The notes beneath the pieces were generated by a model that was not told the origin of the DNA, did no database searches, and was given only the letters and a program-made list of their open reading frames with translations. Positions 8,450 through 30,814 of a stretch of DNA of 38,739 nucleotides are shown here, in pieces. The position numbers were made by a program, and so were the translations under genes. Position 1 is the stretch's first letter, and each line of letters starts with the position of its first letter. The stretch is from positions 1 to 38,739 of the forward strand of contig JAKVAS010000018.1 in assembly GCA_022448165.1 (NCBI GenBank), written 5' to 3'. Origin of the DNA: Crocinitomicaceae bacterium. GTDB lineage: Bacteria; Bacteroidota; Bacteroidia; Flavobacteriales_D; Crocinitomicaceae.

Positions 8450-9709
8450 TTATACCAATATTTGAAATAAATCAGGGTTATTATTAAGGTATTCACCAAA
8501 GAATTTTTTCGCCTTCATTTTTTCCATGAGTGTTTCAATATCTTTTGGATCAAATAACTCTAGACCAACTACTGCTGGACCAGAATTTCGATTATGTTTT
8601 TTTGAATACTCAAAATGTGTAATATCGTCGTTAGGGCCTAAAATATCAGATAAGAACTCCCTTAACGCACCCGCTCTTTGCGGAAATCTAATAATGAAAT
8701 AATGTTTATGGCCAGAATGAAGTAAGGCGCGTTCTTTTATTTCTTCCGTTCGCGTGATATCGTTGTTAGAACCGCTAATCAAACAGACCACATTTTTACC
8801 TTTAATTTCCTCTTGATATTGTTCTAATACAGCAGTGGTTAGTGCGCCTGCTGGCTCCACTACGATAGCATTTTTATTATATAAATCCAATATGGTTTGA
8901 CATACTTTTCCCTCATGCACAGTAACCATTTCATCAAGATTTTCTTTACAAATCTCAAAGTTTAAATCACCAACCTTTTGCACAGAAGCCCCATCCACAA
9001 ACTTATTGATGTCTTCGATTTTAGTATTTACTCCATTTTTTATAGAGGTAGACATAGAAGGAGCCCCTTGAGGCTCCACACCAATCACCTTCGTACTTGC
9101 CGATAACTCTTTAAATATACTTGAGATTCCCGCAGACACCCCTCCTCCTCCAACAGGCAAAAACAAATAATCAATAGGCGCTTTAGATTCTTCTAATATT
9201 TCCAGAGCAATGGTAGCCTGTCCCTCTATTACTTTTATATCATTAAATGGGTGTACAAATGACATGTTATGATTATTACAATATGCAATCGCGCTCTGAG
9301 AAGCGTCATCAAAAGTATCCCCTGTTAAAACAACATCCACATAATCGCCACCAAACATTTTTACTTGTTCAATTTTTTGATTTGGAGTAGGTGCAGGCAT
9401 AAAAATAACTCCCTTTATCTTCTTTACAAAACAAGAGTACGCTACACCTTGAGCATGATTGCCGGCACTAGCACACACAACACCTTGTTTTAATTCAACA
9501 GCTGTTAAAGACGCAATTTTATTATATGCTCCCCTTATTTTATAAGATCTAACCTCTTGTAAATCTTCTCTTTTAAAAATAACGTTAGCGCCGTATTTTT
9601 CCGATAAGTATTGATTCTTTTGTAGCGGTGTTTTTAAAACAACATCCCTCAAAAGAGATGCTGTTTTTTCCACTTCACTTAAATTAACATATTTGATTAA
9701 TGTGGACAT
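8450..9709 (-). CDS. ilvA: threonine ammonia-lyase
   Basis: PLP lysine motif FKREDLQEVRSYKIRGAYN, GGGGVSAG, C-terminal ACT-like region; located in the ilv operon. Confidence 0.93.
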   Translation of the reverse strand: MSTLIKYVNLSEVEKTASLLRDVVLKTPLQKNQYLSEKYGANVIFKREDLQEVRSYKIRGAYNKIASLTAVELKQGVVCASAGNHAQGVAYSCFVKKIKGVIFMPAPTPNQKIEQVKMFGGDYVDVVLTGDTFDDASQSAIAYCNNHNMSFVHPFNDIKVIEGQATIALEILEESKAPIDYLFLPVGGGGVSAGISSIFKELSASTKVIGVEPQGAPSMSTSIKNGVNTKIEDINKFVDGASVQKVGDLNFEICKENLDEMVTVHEGKVCQTILDLYNKNAIVVEPAGALTTAVLEQYQEEIKGKNVVCLISGSNNDITRTEEIKERALLHSGHKHYFIIRFPQRAGALREFLSDILGPNDDITHFEYSKKHNRNSGPAVVGLELFDPKDIETLMEKMKAKKFFGEYLNNNPDLFQILV

Positions 9710-11178
9710 TAGTTTAACTTTTGCATAGCAGTCATTGAAGCTCTAAGTTTGGCACCAACAATTTCTATCGGGTGATTTCTCAACGCTTGATTTACCGCTA
9801 TTAATTTTTGATTATCGACATAATTTTCTTCTGCGTACGGTTTTCCAATTAGACTTGTATCCACATTTTTCATGAATTCCGTCAATAACGGTTTACAAGC
9901 ATGATCAAACAAATAACAACCGTACTCAGCAGTATCAGAAATAATTCTATTCATTTCATATAACTTTTTACGTGCAATTGTATTGGCAATTAACGGTGTT
10001 TCATGCAACGATTCATAATATGCCGACTCAGCCTTTATACCCGCATTAGTCATTGTTTCGTATGCTAACTCAACTCCTGCTTTGGTAAAAGCAGCTAACA
10101 ACGTTCCATGATCAAAAAATTCCTGCTCATTAATTGGTTTGTCCGTAATTTTCGTTTGCTCAAATGCTGTTTCACCCGTAGCCTTTCTCCAGTTTAACAA
10201 ATCCTTATCATTATTCCTCCAATCTTCCATCATTCCTGCAGAAAATTCACCTGACATAATATCATCCATATGCTTGGTAAATAATGGCGTCATAATAGTC
10301 TTTAACTCTTCCGATAATTCATGCGCTTTAATTTTGGCTGGGTTGGATAGTCTATCCATCATATTTGTTAACCCACCATGTTTCAATGCTTCGGTTAACG
10401 TTTCCCAACCATACTGAATTAACTTAGCAGCATAGCCCTCATCTATGCCTTCTTGAACCATCTTGTCAAAGCATAAAATAGATCCCGTTTGTAAGACTCC
10501 GCATAAAATCGTTTGCTCGCCCATTAAGTCTGATTTCACCTCCGCTACAAATGATGAATTAAGAACCCCTGCTTTGTCTCCTCCAGTAGCAACTGCATAA
10601 GCTTTAGCTAATTCCAATCCTTCATTCCTAGGATCATTTTCAGGATGAACAGCTATCAAAGTAGGTACACCAAAACCTCTTTTAAACTCCTCTCGAACCT
10701 CAGAACCAGGTGATTTAGGCGCCATCATTATTACGGTTAAGTCTTCTCTAATTGTCATCCCCTCTTCAACAATATTAAACCCATGAGAGTAAGATAAAGC
10801 CGCTCCTTTTTTCATTAGAGGCATTACGCTATTTACAACTGATGTATGCTGTTTGTCTGGTGTTAAATTAATTACTAAATCAGCACTCGGAATCATTTCT
10901 TCATAAGTACCCACATTAAAGTTATTCTCTGTTGCATTTTTAAATGACTGTCTTTGTTCTTTAATAGCACCTTCTCTAAGAGTGTAAGACACATCTAAAC
11001 CAGAATCTCTCATGTTCAAACCTTGATTCAAACCTTGAGCTCCACACCCAATAATTACAATCTTTTTATCATTCAACGCTTTTGTTCCGTTTTGGAATTC
11101 AGACGCATCCATAAAGTCACATTTACCTAATTGTGTTAATTGGTTTCTAAGTGATAAGGTGTTAAAATAATTTTTCAT
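9709..11178 (-). CDS. ilvC: ketol-acid reductoisomerase (long form)
   Basis: [36 protein letters not shown] and [33 protein letters not shown] motifs; 489 aa. Confidence 0.95.
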
Positions 11179-11198: not shown

Positions 11199-11501
11199 TT
11201 AATTAATTGAATTATGGGTAAGTTTTGAAACTACCAAGTCTTGAAGTAACATGTCAGACTCTGAGTGGTAGTATGCTTTTAACACATCCACCTGCTTCTC
11301 TAACTGTTTTGTAATTTTTACAATTTGCGACTCAGAGGTATGGATCACTATCTTAAATTTTGAAATCCCTTCCACTTCACTTTTCTCCACCTTCAAACTT
11401 TCTATATTTATTTTTCGCCTCGTAAATATGATGGAAACCCTAACGAGCATACCCGGCATATTCTCCGTAAAAACGGATATTTTAAATCTTTTATCATTCA
11501 T
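11199..11501 (-). CDS. ilvN: acetolactate synthase small subunit (ACT domain, short form)
   Basis: ACT domain FKISVFTENMPGMLVRVSIIFTRRKINIESLKVEKSEVEGISKFKIVI, directly after ilvB. Confidence 0.85.
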   Translation of the reverse strand: MNDKRFKISVFTENMPGMLVRVSIIFTRRKINIESLKVEKSEVEGISKFKIVIHTSESQIVKITKQLEKQVDVLKAYYHSESDMLLQDLVVSKLTHNSIN

Positions 11502-11507
11502 TTCACT

Positions 11508-13235
11508 CTATTTTAACCTCACATCAGATACCGCCGATCCTGTTGGTATCATCGGAAATACATTATTTTCTTTACCAACCATAACCTCTAAAAAATATGA
11601 CCCTTCATGAGATAACATTTCTGTAATTGCTCTTTTTAACTCCTCTCTTTTCTCAACTTTTTTGGTCGTAATACCATACCCCTTAACTATAGTCTGAAAG
11701 TCTGGATTAACCATATGAGTAGAAGCATATCTCTTATCAAAAAATAGCTCTTGCCACTGTCTTACCATTCCTAAAAACTCGTTGTTTAAAACCACCATCT
11801 TCACCGGCGTTTTACATTGAAGTATAGTTCCCAATTCTTGAATTGTCATTTGAAAACCACCATCTCCCATTATAGCGATAACCTGAGTGTTTGGCATCCC
11901 CATTTTGGCACCAATTGCAGCTGGCAAACAAAACCCCATAGTTCCAAGTCCTCCAGAAGTAATCATAGATCTTGTTTCTTTAAATTTGGCATACCTACAA
12001 GCCATCATTTGATGCTGTCCAACATCAGTTACGATAATATTATTCTTGTCAGACAACTCATTTATTTGATGGATCACCTCCCCCATACTCATTATTTCAG
12101 TGGATGGAGATAACTCTTCATTAATGACCTCTTTGTATTCTTCTTGTTCTAATACTCTAAACTGATTAAGCCAAGCCTCGTGTTTTCTAGTTTTAACTAA
12201 TTCAGTTAAGTGCATTAAACTCTCTTTTGCATCTGCGATTATCGCAACGTCCGCTTTAACATTTTTATCTATCTCCGCAGGATCGATATCTAAGTGTATA
12301 ACCTTTGCCTGCTTTGCATATTTAGTCAAATCTCCAGTTACTCGATCGTCGAATCGCATACCTACAGCGATCAATACATCACACTCATTTGTCAATTTAT
12401 TTGGCGCATAGTTACCATGCATCCCCAACATTCCAACATGTAAATAGTGGTCAGATTCCAAAGCTGATAATCCAAGAATAGTGCATGCAGATGGTATTCC
12501 TGCTTTCTCAATAAAAGCTTTAAACTCCTTTTCAGCTTCAGACAAAATCACGCCTTGACCAAATAAAACAAATGGTTTTTTTGCTTGATCAATTAACTGA
12601 GAAGCAACTTTTACCTTATCTCGATCAAGTTCTGGCTTAGGCAAATAACTTCTCATTCCTATAAACGGCTTGTACTCAAAATTAACTTCACCAAATTGAG
12701 CATCCTTAGTAATATCGATCAATACAGGACCTGGTTTCCCAGTTTTCGCAATGTAAAATGCTTTGGCTATAGCCATTGGAATTTCCTCGGCATTTGTAAC
12801 CTGAAAATTCCATTTCGTTACCGGCATTGAAATATCAATGACATCTGTTTCTTGAAAAGCATCTGTACCTAACAAATGACTTGCTACTTGCCCTGTAATA
12901 CAAACTAATGGCGTAGAGTCTATTTGAGCATCTGCTATGCCAGTAATCAAATTTGTAGCTCCTGGGCCTGAAGTGGCAATACATACACCAACTTTACCTG
13001 TTGCTCTCGCATACCCCTGTGCGGCATGCACTGCACCTTGCTCATGTCTAGTTAAAACATGTTTAATTTGATCTTCAAAATCATAAAGTGCATCATAAAC
13101 CGGCATTATAGCCCCCCCCGGGTACCCAAACATTAAGTCAGCACCTTCTTCAATTAATGACTGAACAACTGCCTCTGCTCCTATCATCAACTTTTTTTCC
13201 GTTTTGATTTTATTTTTTATTTCAAGCGTTTCCAT
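11508..13235 (-). CDS. ilvB: acetolactate synthase large subunit
   Basis: ThDP enzyme motifs: FGYPGGAIMPVYDALYDFEDQIKHVLTRHEQGAVHAAQGYARATGKVGVCIATSGPGATNL, GDGGFQMTIQEL. Confidence 0.95.
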   Translation of the reverse strand: METLEIKNKIKTEKKLMIGAEAVVQSLIEEGADLMFGYPGGAIMPVYDALYDFEDQIKHVLTRHEQGAVHAAQGYARATGKVGVCIATSGPGATNLITGIADAQIDSTPLVCITGQVASHLLGTDAFQETDVIDISMPVTKWNFQVTNAEEIPMAIAKAFYIAKTGKPGPVLIDITKDAQFGEVNFEYKPFIGMRSYLPKPELDRDKVKVASQLIDQAKKPFVLFGQGVILSEAEKEFKAFIEKAGIPSACTILGLSALESDHYLHVGMLGMHGNYAPNKLTNECDVLIAVGMRFDDRVTGDLTKYAKQAKVIHLDIDPAEIDKNVKADVAIIADAKESLMHLTELVKTRKHEAWLNQFRVLEQEEYKEVINEELSPSTEIMSMGEVIHQINELSDKNNIIVTDVGQHQMMACRYAKFKETRSMITSGGLGTMGFCLPAAIGAKMGMPNTQVIAIMGDGGFQMTIQELGTILQCKTPVKMVVLNNEFLGMVRQWQELFFDKRYASTHMVNPDFQTIVKGYGITTKKVEKREELKRAITEMLSHEGSYFLEVMVGKENNVFPMIPTGSAVSDVRLK

Positions 13236-13260: not shown

Positions 13261-14937
13261 TTAAAATTCGTCAGTAACACAACCTTCTGAGGCACATGAT
13301 ACAGTCCTAGCATACTTGTAAAGCACGCCTTTCTTATGTTTTAAATGAGGTTGGCTCCAACGAGATTTCCTTAAAATCAACTCCTCTTTTGTAACATCAA
13401 AATCTATGGTGTTATTTATAGCATCAATAGTAATCCTGTCACCATCTTTTACAAAAGCAATTGGTCCGCCAACTTGGGCCTCTGGAGAAATATGACCAAC
13501 AACAAACCCATGTGTTCCACCTGAAAACCTTCCATCAGTGATTAAGGCAACATCATTGCCTAATCCCGCCCCGATAATTGCCGCTGTAGGCTTAAGCATT
13601 TCAGGCATTCCCGGTCCTCCTTTTGGACCTTCATACCTAATTACTACCACATCTCCCTTTTCTACTTTCCCATCTCTAATGCCATCATTAGCAGCATATT
13701 CAGATTCAAACACCTTCGCTGTACCTGTAAAACGGAGGCCTTCTTTACCCGTAATTTTTGCTACAGCACCTTTAGGAGATAAATTTCCTTTAAGGATTCT
13801 TAAGTGACCTGTTTTCTTTATTGGGTTTTCAAGCGTTTTGATAACTTGCTGACCTGTCAACAGGTCAGGTACAGTTTCCAAATTTTCAGCTAACGTATTC
13901 CCCGTTACAGTTAAACAATCTCCATGTAAAAGACCATTTTTCAATAGGTACTTTAATACCGCCGGCACACCTCCAACTTCATGCACATCCTCCATAAGAA
14001 ACTGTCCACTTGGCTTGAGGTCGGCCAGAAATGGAGTTGTATCAGCAATTCTTTGAAAATCTGATAATGTAAATTCAACCCCCGCTGTTTTTGCTATTGC
14101 CAAAAAGTGAAGCACAGCATTTGTCGAGCCACCCAAAACAGTTACTAATCTTATCGCATTTTCTAGTGCCTTTTTAGTAACTATATCTTTCGGTTTCAAA
14201 TCCTTTTCAAGTAAAACTCTAACTGTTTCCCCCGCTTTCACACTCTCGCTTTTCTTCTTTTCACCTAATGCTGGGTTCGAAGAATTATAAGGTAGTGACA
14301 TCCCCAATGCTTCAATAGCTGACGCCATAGTATTGGCAGTATACATACCTCCACAAGCTCCTGCTCCTGGACAAGCTTTTTCTATTATACTCTCGTATTC
14401 TTCTGTATCCATCTTACCCGCTACTTTTTGTCCCCAAGCTTCAAAAGCAGATACTATATCTAACTTCTTATCCTTATGACAACCTGAAGCTATGGTACCA
14501 CCATAAACAAGAATACCCGGCCTGTTTGTTCTCAACATTGCCATCAATGCTCCAGGCATATTTTTATCACATCCAACAACTGTAACCAAAGCATCATAAG
14601 ACATTCCTTCAACGACTGTTTCCATTGAATCCGCTATTACATCTCTCGATGGTAATGAGTATCTCATCCCAGGAGTTCCCATAGAAATACCATCACTTAC
14701 ACCAATCGTATTGTAAATCAAACCAACTGTACTTACATTTTTCGTTCCCCGCTTAACTTCAAGTGCCAAGTCATTTAAATGCATATTACAAGGGTTACCT
14801 TCATATCCAGTACTCGCAATACCAACAAATGGCTTACTAAAGTCTTCCTTAGTCAAACCAATAGCATGAAGCATTGCTTTAGCTGCTGGTTGTGTGTCAT
14901 CTTGCGTAACACGCTTACTGTATTTATTCAATTCCAT
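13261..14937 (-). CDS. ilvD: dihydroxy-acid dehydratase
   Basis: [64 protein letters not shown]. Confidence 0.95.
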
Positions 14938-15088: not shown

Positions 15089-15979
15089 TTAAACCAATTC
15101 AAAAAGCTTATACTCCTTTTCCCTTACTCGATTCATGTACGCATTTGAAAGAGTGTACCCCATGGTATCTTCCCATTTTAAGTTGAACCTTTTATTATCA
15201 AGGCTTTCTATGCCAGCAACTTCAGCCGCTGTTCCTGTAAAAAATGCACCATCCGCCTCATACACATCTTTAGGCGTAAAGTATTTCTCTTCAACTGTGA
15301 AATCAAGCTCCTTAGCTAGATCTAGAATAGTTTGTCGTGTGATGCCAGCAAGAATATTTCCCAATGGAGCAGTAAATAATTTACCCCCTTTTTCATAAAA
15401 GAAATTGGCTCCAGGACCTTCTGCTATATAGCCATTCATATCCAGTAATAATGCCTCATCAAACCCTTTTTGTTTTGCTTCCGTAGTTGCTAATATTGAA
15501 TTCGTATAATGGCCTGTGACTTTCGCTTCAACAAAACAAGATTTTGGATTTGGCCTCTGAAATGAAGAAGTCATTAGCCTTAACCCAGTATTACCCAAAT
15601 ACCTTCCCCATTCCCATGCGCACAACATTACATGAACCTTATTTGTTGGTTGTAACTGCATGTTTTCCCCTAGATAAACCAATGGGCGGATGTATGCATC
15701 CTCTAAACCATTCTTTTCAAGTAACTGGTATGTTAACCGAATTAACTCTTCGACTGAATAAGGGAGCTTAATGTGCATTTTTTCAGCTGAATAATGTAAT
15801 CTTTCATAATGTTCCTTAGCCTTAAACACATTAGCACCATTTTCTGTTTTATAAGATCTAATGCCTTCAAACACACCTGCTCCATAGTGAAGTGTTTGAC
15901 TATAAAGATCAGCTGAACTATCTTTCGCTTTAACCCAATTTCCATCTAAAAATATCAGGGTATCATTGTTGTAATACAT
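15089..15979 (-). CDS. ilvE: branched-chain amino acid aminotransferase
   Basis: LHYGAGVFEGIRSYKTENGANVFK...YIRPLVYLG...EALLLDMNGYIAEGPGANFFY (class IV aminotransferase). Confidence 0.95.
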   Translation of the reverse strand: MYYNNDTLIFLDGNWVKAKDSSADLYSQTLHYGAGVFEGIRSYKTENGANVFKAKEHYERLHYSAEKMHIKLPYSVEELIRLTYQLLEKNGLEDAYIRPLVYLGENMQLQPTNKVHVMLCAWEWGRYLGNTGLRLMTSSFQRPNPKSCFVEAKVTGHYTNSILATTEAKQKGFDEALLLDMNGYIAEGPGANFFYEKGGKLFTAPLGNILAGITRQTILDLAKELDFTVEEKYFTPKDVYEADGAFFTGTAAEVAGIESLDNKRFNLKWEDTMGYTLSNAYMNRVREKEYKLFELV

Positions 15980-16010: not shown

Positions 16011-16043
16011 AAAAAAAAGCCCTTCTCAGTAGTGAGAAGGGCT
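16011..16043 (-). terminator. ilv attenuator terminator B (upstream of ilvE)
   Basis: Minus strand AGCCCTTCTCA-CTAC-TGAGAAGGGCT followed by a T8 tract; 11-bp perfect stem, 32 nt upstream of the ilvE start. Confidence 0.9.
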
Positions 16044-16070
16044 CTAATATTTTTCAATACAATTCCGTTC

Positions 16071-16163
16071 TCACCCATGAGGTAAAATAATAATGACTAC
16101 AATGACAATGACAGTTGTTAACATGTTCATTATACTATTACTATCGAATTGTTTCTTTTTCAT
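16071..16163 (-). CDS. ilv leader peptide B, MKKKQFDSNSIMNMLTTVIVIVVIIILPHG
   Basis: 30-codon ORF with ten consecutive Val/Ile/Leu codons (VIVIVVIIIL) preceded by Leu-Thr-Thr; stop codon 27 nt before terminator B. Confidence 0.88.
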   Translation of the reverse strand: MKKKQFDSNSIMNMLTTVIVIVVIIILPHG

Positions 16164-16211
16164 TTTTAATTGTCTTAATTACCGTTTCTTATCTCAAATA
16201 AAACTTATTCC

Positions 16212-16239
16212 AAAAAAAAAGCCATCCTCATGGATGGCT
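16212..16239 (-). terminator. ilv attenuator terminator A
   Basis: Minus strand AGCCATCC-ATGA-GGATGGCT followed by T9. Confidence 0.85.
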
Positions 16240-16269
16240 CAAGTTTATATTTTTAGTTGTACCATCTTA

Positions 16270-16329
16270 TTAGCTGTGATTGACAATCACGACTTCAATA
16301 ATTGATGGTAAAATATTTGTGTTCTTCAT
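16270..16329 (-). CDS. ilv leader peptide A, MKNTNILPSIIEVVIVNHS
   Basis: 19-codon ORF, 8 of 19 residues Ile/Leu/Val; stop codon 30 nt before terminator A; upstream of leader B on the same strand. Confidence 0.75.
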   Translation of the reverse strand: MKNTNILPSIIEVVIVNHS

Positions 16330-16337
16330 TACAGCGG

Positions 16338-16369
16338 CAAAGTTATCATATCTTTTTATTAATTTCCAA
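16338..16369 (-). promoter_or_regulatory. candidate ilv operon promoter (TTG-N21-TAACTTTG)
   Basis: Minus strand TTTGGAAATTAATAAAAAGATATGATAACTTTG: TAACTTTG matches the Bacteroidota TAnnTTTG -7 box with an upstream TTG. Confidence 0.45.
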
Positions 16370-16671
16370 ATAAAGCGCAAACTTTTTGAGAATAATCTTT
16401 TGTACCCATCTCAAATTCAATAAAATATAACAAGAAAAGAACCTTTAAACTCAGATATACATAGCAAAACTTGTTAACAACATTAAATCAATGAGCTAAA
16501 TTGGAATTTTAGAAACTGTGTTGAGGTGTAAAACTACCTATCATCACGAAATAAACTGCTTTTCAAAAAATTTAATACCGTAATTCTCAAATAGAAGCCT
16601 TAATTGATCCTTTTATAAATTGTCGTTGGGTTTAACGGGCAAATGAAATAATTTCAATTTATTAAAATCAA

Positions 16672-16707: not shown

Positions 16708-16716
16708 CTCACTGTG

Positions 16717-16790
16717 TGCTCCCACATGGGCTCGAACCATGGACCCCTTGATTATGAGTCAAGTGCTCTAACCAGCTGAGCTATAGGAGC
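16717..16790 (-). tRNA. tRNA with CAU anticodon (elongator Met or Ile2)
   Basis: GCTCCTATAGCTCAGCTGGTTAGAGCACTTGACTCATAATCAAGGGGTCCATGGTTCGAGCCCATGTGGGAGCA folds as a cloverleaf with anticodon loop CTCATAA; CCA not encoded. Confidence 0.93.
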
Positions 16791-29839: not shown

Positions 29840-29911
29840 ATGTACAGAAACAATTTTACATATTATTTCTTTTTTGGAGTTTCAAGCCACTGGAACCTAT
29901 TAAGGATATGA
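29840..29911 (+). CDS. aromatic leader peptide MYRNNFTYYFFFGVSSHWNLLRI
   Basis: 23-codon ORF with FTYYFFF (six aromatics in seven codons), 24 nt upstream of a strong terminator and upstream of pheA. Confidence 0.88.
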   Translation: MYRNNFTYYFFFGVSSHWNLLRI

Positions 29912-29986: not shown

Positions 29987-30814
29987 ATGAGAAAACACAA
30001 AATTGCAATCCAAGGAATCGATGAATCATTTCATCATTTAGCAGCTCAAAAAATTTTTGGAGAAGATGTAATCACGGAGCACTGCAGTAGCTTTGAAGAC
30101 GTATGCATTACAATAACGGAAAACGGAGCAGATTATGGGGTGATGGCTATTGAAAACTTATTAACAGGTTGTATTCTAACTAATTATTACTTAATTGAAA
30201 AATACGGACTTAATATAATTGGAGAAACGACAATCCCTATTTCCCTTCATTTGATAGGGTTACCGGGTGCACGTTTAAATGAAATAGAAAAGGTCATATC
30301 CCACCCGATAGCATTGGCTCAATGTACAAAAACCATTCGCTCAAATGGTTGGAGTACTGAACAAACAAATGACACTGCAACCTCAGTAAAAGATATTAGT
30401 ACATCAAAAACCTCTGAAGTCGCTGCGATTGCGAATAGTTCTGCCGCCGAAAAGTACGGAATGGAAATCTTACTCAATGGAATTCAAAACTTTCCTGAGA
30501 ACAAAACGCGCTTCCTTGTTTTATCTACAAAAAAAGTAGTTAATCCAAAAGCAAATAAAGCTTCTATCTCCTTTCAATTAGAGCATTCAAAAGGAGCATT
30601 GGCCAAACTACTCCATCAATTAGCCAACAAAGGTTGTAATGTTTCCAAAATCCAGTCCATTCCCTTACCAAATAATGTAGATCAGTATTCATTTATAATA
30701 AATATTGAATGGGAAGAAGATTTGGATCACAACGAACTATTTACAAGTTTATCTCCCCTCGTTAAAACACTAAAAATACTAGGTATATACATTAAAAACA
30801 CCATGATTTCTTAA
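29987..30814 (+). CDS. pheA: prephenate dehydratase
   Basis: IAIQGIDESFHHLAAQKIFG, YGVMAIENLLTGCI, ENKTRFLVLS, C-terminal ACT domain (SISFQLEHSKGALAKLLHQLANKGCNVSKIQSIP). Confidence 0.92.
   Translation: MRKHKIAIQGIDESFHHLAAQKIFGEDVITEHCSSFEDVCITITENGADYGVMAIENLLTGCILTNYYLIEKYGLNIIGETTIPISLHLIGLPGARLNEIEKVISHPIALAQCTKTIRSNGWSTEQTNDTATSVKDISTSKTSEVAAIANSSAAEKYGMEILLNGIQNFPENKTRFLVLSTKKVVNPKANKASISFQLEHSKGALAKLLHQLANKGCNVSKIQSIPLPNNVDQYSFIINIEWEEDLDHNELFTSLSPLVKTLKILGIYIKNTMIS

Follow-up and report, generated by a model that had tools for sequence, protein, structure and literature searches.

Two putative leader-peptide attenuators in series before the ilv operon of a Crocinitomicaceae bacterium, with counterparts in other Bacteroidota

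Attenuation is known from textbooks as a single switch. In ilv, trp and his attenuators of the E. coli type, an amino-acid-rich leader and overlapping 1:2, 2:3 and 3:4 pairings are followed by a terminator before the first structural gene, with one such unit per operon. The leader mRNA of Salmonella mgtCBR carries two short leader ORFs, each an attenuator, and has been called a "singular example"; its modules are unlike one another and respond to unlike signals (ATP and proline), and the pair of intrinsic terminators found in the metE tandem riboswitches is absent from that leader (PMC3641672). The mefA/msrD operon also has two ribosome-mediated transcriptional attenuators, for which a double lock has been proposed (PMC10314930), but stalling there is induced by drugs and not by starvation, msrD is the only gene under the second attenuator, which is located within the operon, and the modules are not adjacent. 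Tandem riboswitches and T-boxes likewise place repeated cis sensors in series, some of them forming logic gates (PMC5912903, PMC12452182, PMC7583486), although their aptamers bind a metabolite or a tRNA. Class of bacteria, amino-acid operons and promoter type are shared with Flavobacterium psychrophilum, where clues to attenuation by leader peptides ahead of such operons have been noted; the main text of that paper mentions neither tandem modules nor ilv (PMC9723704).

We analysed the ilv leader in a 38,739-nucleotide stretch of DNA from a Crocinitomicaceae bacterium (GenBank assembly GCA_022448165.1, contig JAKVAS010000018.1), called the window below. In contrast to the systems above, the biosynthetic operon is preceded by two like modules (up to three in relatives) behind one promoter, which carry codons for the same amino-acid class and have their own terminators; the proposed signal is ribosome stalling on a leader ORF, and the first leader starts about 4 nt after the predicted transcription start. 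As far as could be searched, like modules in series, variable array size and a possible Val/Ile split are new. A preliminary description of this DNA knew of no tandem arrangement in Bacteroidota, and we found no description of tandem amino-acid attenuators in the main text of the open-access papers searched, to which the claim of novelty is confined.

Elements of the ilv leader

The preliminary description had listed a promoter box, leader A, a terminator, leader B, a second terminator and ilvE, in that order on the minus strand, at the head of an ilvE-D-B-N-C-A operon. Every element was found in the order claimed, and NCBIfam agrees with the gene names. The hairpins and their T9 and T8 tracts are likewise present, with stems slightly longer than the 8 and 11 bp first described (9 and 13 pairs). 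The features are as follows.

16367..16369, minus strand: -33 element TTG, 24 nt upstream of the -7 box
16338..16345, minus strand: -7 box TAACTTTG, the sole promoter detected, from its sequence and the box spacing in relatives
16270..16329, minus strand: leader peptide A, MKNTNILPSIIEVVIVNHS followed by a stop; Ile/Leu/Val make up 8 of 19 codons
16260..16310, minus strand: predicted protector hairpin 1:2 of module A, fold -15.1 kcal/mol
16310-16304, minus strand: segment 1 of module A, TACCATC, within leader A codons 7-9
16266-16260, minus strand: segment 2 of module A, GATGGTA, immediately 3' of the leader A stop
16219..16240, minus strand: terminator A, segments 3:4 being GAGCCATCC and GGATGGCTT, then T9; 9 pairs, -14.9 kcal/mol
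16071..16163, minus strand: leader peptide B, MKKKQFDSNSIMNMLTTVIVIVVIIILPHG followed by a stop, with the run VIVIVVIIIL; Ile/Leu/Val make up 12 of 30 codons
16068..16074, minus strand: segment 2 of module B, GTGAGAA, overlapping the leader B stop codon
16016..16045, minus strand: terminator B (3:4), then T8; 13 pairs including A-U, -20.6 kcal/mol
15089..15979, minus strand: ilvE, branched-chain amino acid transaminase, start at 15979 (NCBIfam)
13261..14937, minus strand: ilvD (NCBIfam)
11508..13235, minus strand: ilvB (NCBIfam)
11199..11501, minus strand: ilvN (NCBIfam)
9709..11178, minus strand: ilvC (NCBIfam)
8450..9709, minus strand: ilvA (NCBIfam)

A strict leader-plus-terminator detector called two modules in the window. 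The 1.4-kb region holds 4 terminator-like sites against 0.5 expected from dinucleotide shuffles, and fold z-scores were -3.8 for module A and -6.0 for module B. Leader B has two further in-frame ATGs, at 16130 and 16124, as alternative starts. An Rfam search of both modules gave nothing at gathering score, and family membership was rejected, the sub-threshold matches being weak and chance-like. A tRNA-Met gene (16716-16790, minus strand) lies upstream of the ilv leaders with its own 18-pair terminator (16709-16670); transcription of the leaders by read-through from this gene was rejected because that terminator is strong.

Module arrays in relatives

The preliminary description had proposed a comparison of ilvE upstream regions from related genomes. 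In 110 such regions, window included, hairpins and branched-chain amino acid (BCAA) codon runs were kept together in relatives. Within this sample L036 equals L003 and L045 equals L009, and some regions are shortened by contig ends. The strict detector found a module in 84 of the 110 regions and two in 31, as against 0 modules in 1100 dinucleotide-shuffled ilvE upstream regions. With a looser detector, 96 regions had at least one module (one in 54, two in 40, three in 2, none in 14). These counts are approximate: module A, visible by eye, is missed in L005, L034, L035 and L038; a TTG-started first module is missed in L083 and L087, which brings the triple arrays to four by hand; and a few calls are wrong, for example a 55-codon ORF in L081. 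A suspected third module in Myroides L097 falls in masked N sequence and was left out of the counts.

Tandem arrays occur in Flavobacteriales (the window's clade, Ulvibacter, Gelidibacter, Aureisphaera, Chryseobacterium, Bizionia and Aequorivita), in Cytophagales (Pontibacter, Cesiribacter and Roseivirga) and elsewhere, and module state (0, 1 or 2+) changes at least 22 times on the IlvE tree. Cultured species with tandem modules include Ulvibacter antarcticus DSM 23424, Chryseobacterium rhizosphaerae KCTC 22548 and Pontibacter virosus DSM 100231, and three modules are present in Bizionia algoritergicola and Aequorivita xiaoshiensis. The tandem arrangement, with up to three modules, is more general than first thought and extends to several Bacteroidota lineages. 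It is not phylum-wide, since none of 30 ilvD-first Bacteroidales loci had two modules. Bacteroidales-type ilvD loci typically carry one long Leu/Ile/Val leader without a nearby simple terminator; in L131-L136, L140 and L144 this leader has 45-60 codons before ilvD and ends in a Leu/Ile run such as IILLGIIILSLLGI. In Flavobacterium (L044, L046, L050, L080), a conserved hydrophobic ORF of 31-32 codons (MKTSPNIWNKILIVINTIISIGLLVLIIKCS), about -230 to -130 before ilvE and without a terminator of its own, precedes the Ile leader.

In the window's clade, the start, Ile/Val run, stop, GGATGG segment and terminator of module A are kept in at least nine tandem species (about 77-80% IlvE identity). Leader A has counterparts with a conserved codon run in same-clade species, and peptide sequence outside the Ile/Val run varies among relatives. 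The clade also contains natural deletions. L032 and L091 have only B, with the promoter box directly before it; L034 and L038 also have the box directly before B, and their module A has lost much of its Val/Ile run. L007, L039 and L040 have only an A-type module, directly before ilvE, with a poor leader in L039 and L007. The existence of relatives with A only or B only suggests that each module type can act alone. Duplications are both old and recent: neighbouring modules are 86-94% identical in L076, L083, L086 and L087, indicating recent duplication, and in other arrays they are as dissimilar as random modules (mean 62%).

Alternative pairings, codon placement and the promoter

In module A the predicted energies are -15.1 (1:2), -7.1 (2:3) and -14.9 kcal/mol (3:4), segment 2 being the alternative partner of segment 3. 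In module B, segment 2 (GTGAGAA) pairs with TTCTCAC of terminator B (2:3, -15.2; 3:4, -20.6 kcal/mol), and the 1:2 hairpin is weak, unlike that of module A. The GTGAG of this segment is invariant across 14 same-clade sequences. Module B also keeps the 12-nt sequence GTCATTATTATT almost without change throughout the window's clade. Pairing in relatives was judged by a cognate-versus-mismatched duplex test in place of formal pair counting on a MAFFT alignment of module A, which set segments at wrong positions in L034 and L075. Cognate 2:3 duplexes averaged -12.8 kcal/mol as compared with -8.9 for mismatched modules, and 2:3 pairing beat shuffled segment 2 (p <= 0.05) in 64% of 133 modules. The same threshold was reached by 1:2 pairing in 30% of all modules. 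By position in the array, the 2:3 signal was present at p <= 0.05 in 31% of first, 76% of later and 79% of only modules, and its weakness in first modules may mean that the distal attenuator is leakier, or in part vestigial, in some lineages.

The choice of Ile and Val codons tends to stabilise the leader hairpin. Val is encoded by GTC in 48% of cases in ilv leaders versus 6.7% in ilvE, and Ile by ATT in 78% versus 45%. Synonymous recoding of the Ile, Val and Leu codons at ilvE frequencies weakened the leader fold (mean z -1.1; 36% below -1.64). An isoacceptor explanation of the GTC bias was rejected because GTC and GTT are expected to share one tRNA; pairing in leader hairpin 1:2 is the better explanation, if a partial one, of the GTC/ATT bias. 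Over the ilv loci taken together, leader Val codons cluster 8-9 codons before the stop. In the 5' direction from the predicted start of segment 2, Ile, Leu and Val account for 0.92-0.96 of the codons at 18-20 nt; at 12-14 nt their share is 0.33 in first, 0.76 in later and 0.55 in only modules, and at 9-11 nt it is down to 0.03-0.20 in all three classes. The control codon run therefore stops 12 nt 5' of segment 2, a spacing present in first and later modules alike. About 12 nt of mRNA beyond the codon being translated lie under the ribosome (PMC4833913), so the codon run ends where it should if a stalled ribosome is to keep off segment 2.

In the 60 nt that precede the module, a TAnnTTTG box occurs at 30 of 42 first modules and 21 of 50 only modules (51 of 92 together), and at 0 of 44 later modules. 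It stands 4-11 nt from the ATG in 19 of the 30 first modules, and the commonest position of TTG in relatives is 22-24 nt upstream of it. The window has no TAnnTTTG between A and B, in a scan confined to this promoter type. Boxes that precede first or only modules and never later ones argue for modules in series behind one promoter, and in the window for both modules on one predicted transcript behind a single box. Mapped starts in F. psychrophilum have the box at -12 to -5 (PMC9723704). By this rule transcription in the window is predicted to start at about 16333, giving leader A a 5' UTR of about 4 nt.

Both modules combine a predicted short BCAA-rich leader ORF, a terminator before the first gene, a competing 2:3 pairing and the codon placement of a classic attenuator, and they look like ribosome-mediated transcription attenuators, a known mechanism class. 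The serial pair of BCAA-codon attenuators proposed in the preliminary description accounts best for the data: antiterminator pairing, spacing, codon runs and the lack of a box between the modules all agree with it. Architecture and mechanism are well supported, and a polymerase that starts at the one promoter very probably has to pass two complete attenuators in turn before it reaches ilvEDBNCA. From these parts we infer stalling, termination and a multiplication of read-through. Transcription would begin some 4 nt upstream of leader A. When Ile and Val are in good supply, the ribosome would complete leader A and mask segment 2, letting 3:4 form and the polymerase halt at T9; under scarcity it would stall on Ile/Val codons over segment 1, so that 2:3 could pair and the polymerase continue. 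The same decision would be taken again at module B, which has a leader, an antiterminator and a T8 terminator of its own. The chance of reaching the operon would be roughly the product of the read-through probabilities at A and B, which amounts to a double lock and would keep basal expression low. The pair may also work more or less as an AND gate that responds to shortage of both Val and Ile, an idea prompted by distal modules being moderately richer in Val and proximal ones dominated by Ile.

One signal or two

Whether the modules sense different amino acids, as the preliminary description had suggested, received a mixed answer. Over 21 sequence clusters, the Val share of control codons averages 0.41 for first modules and 0.21 for last ones (p = 0.012), and in the window's clade it is 0.61 versus 0.25; this supports the suggestion moderately. 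Against it, 7 clusters run the opposite way as compared with 13 in which the first module is richer, and several clades are reversed. A Val/Ile sensor followed by an Ile sensor fits these codon shares, with moderate support and a moderate effect. One leader of mixed codons, as in E. coli, amounts to an OR gate, as opposed to the AND gate of a series order. It is quite possible, if short of probable, that ilv arrays in Bacteroidota outside Bacteroidales generally consist of one to three near-leaderless or downstream modules that duplicated and then diverged, the distal one reading Val (with Ile) and the proximal one Ile, as an AND gate.

Alternatively, the modules may be redundant sensors of one signal that sharpen the response and lessen leakage with no Val/Ile split, which we regard as a real though tentative possibility. 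Ile and Val occur in both leaders, the 86-94% identical neighbours in the triple arrays and some pairs look like functionally equal copies, and a "double lock" is the role put forward for mefA/msrD (PMC10314930). The difference in Val share between first and last modules argues against full redundancy, as do operons for single amino acids: his and trp would gain equally from a double lock, yet no tandem was seen in the sample. In the same order, hisG has a single His-rich leader in 16 of 18 genomes and trpE a single Trp leader in 7 of 7, the window's genome included in both (L225 and L200). In the window's genome a single Thr/Ile leader precedes thrA, and in the window a single Phe/Tyr leader precedes pheA; tandem modules were absent from all his, trp, thrA and pheA leaders sampled.

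29840-29911, plus strand: Phe/Tyr leader MYRNNFTYYFFFGVSSHWNLLRI, before pheA at 29987

Between this single putative attenuator's leader and the genes for prephenate dehydratase and DAHP synthase stands a strong terminator hairpin (-21.2 kcal/mol) with a T7 tract, just before pheA. The other leaders of this genome read MNFNQLHHHHFHTCTQSS (his), NNWWHTTQRWCDW (trp) and TTTTITTTT (thr, L224); a clear Leu leader was looked for at leuA and none was found. The single his, trp and thr leaders point to ribosome-mediated attenuation as general in this genome.

It is unlikely that the proximal module B alone regulates, with module A a decaying duplicate or leftover terminator. Such decay would accord with the weaker 2:3 signal of first modules and with the loss of A in L032 and L091 and its erosion in L034 and L038, in all four of which a promoter box belongs to B itself. 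The parts of module A are nevertheless kept in the tandem species of the clade, A as the sole module directly precedes ilvE in L007, L039 and L040, and the only promoter box of tandem loci precedes A, later modules having none. Very improbable is a separate short transcript of leader A and its terminator acting in trans, as peptide or RNA, with ilvE under the control of B through a cryptic promoter: attenuator peptides that act in trans are known (peTrpL, PMC7298713) and L034 and L038 have a box directly before B, but TAnnTTTG is absent both from the A-B interval of the window and from the stretch ahead of all 44 later modules, and a peptide that varies outside its Ile/Val run is expected of codon sensing and not of a trans-acting peptide.

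Two attenuators in series remain the preferred reading. With one to three interchangeable modules before the same operon, arisen by old and recent duplications, steeper control, lower leakage or two-input logic become testable. The natural arrays also let one ask why ilv is tandem but the sampled his and trp leaders are not. Translation initiation and promoters in Bacteroidota are unlike those of model organisms, and the ilv arrays would add a defined regulatory system for this phylum and may provide modular parts for tunable expression there.
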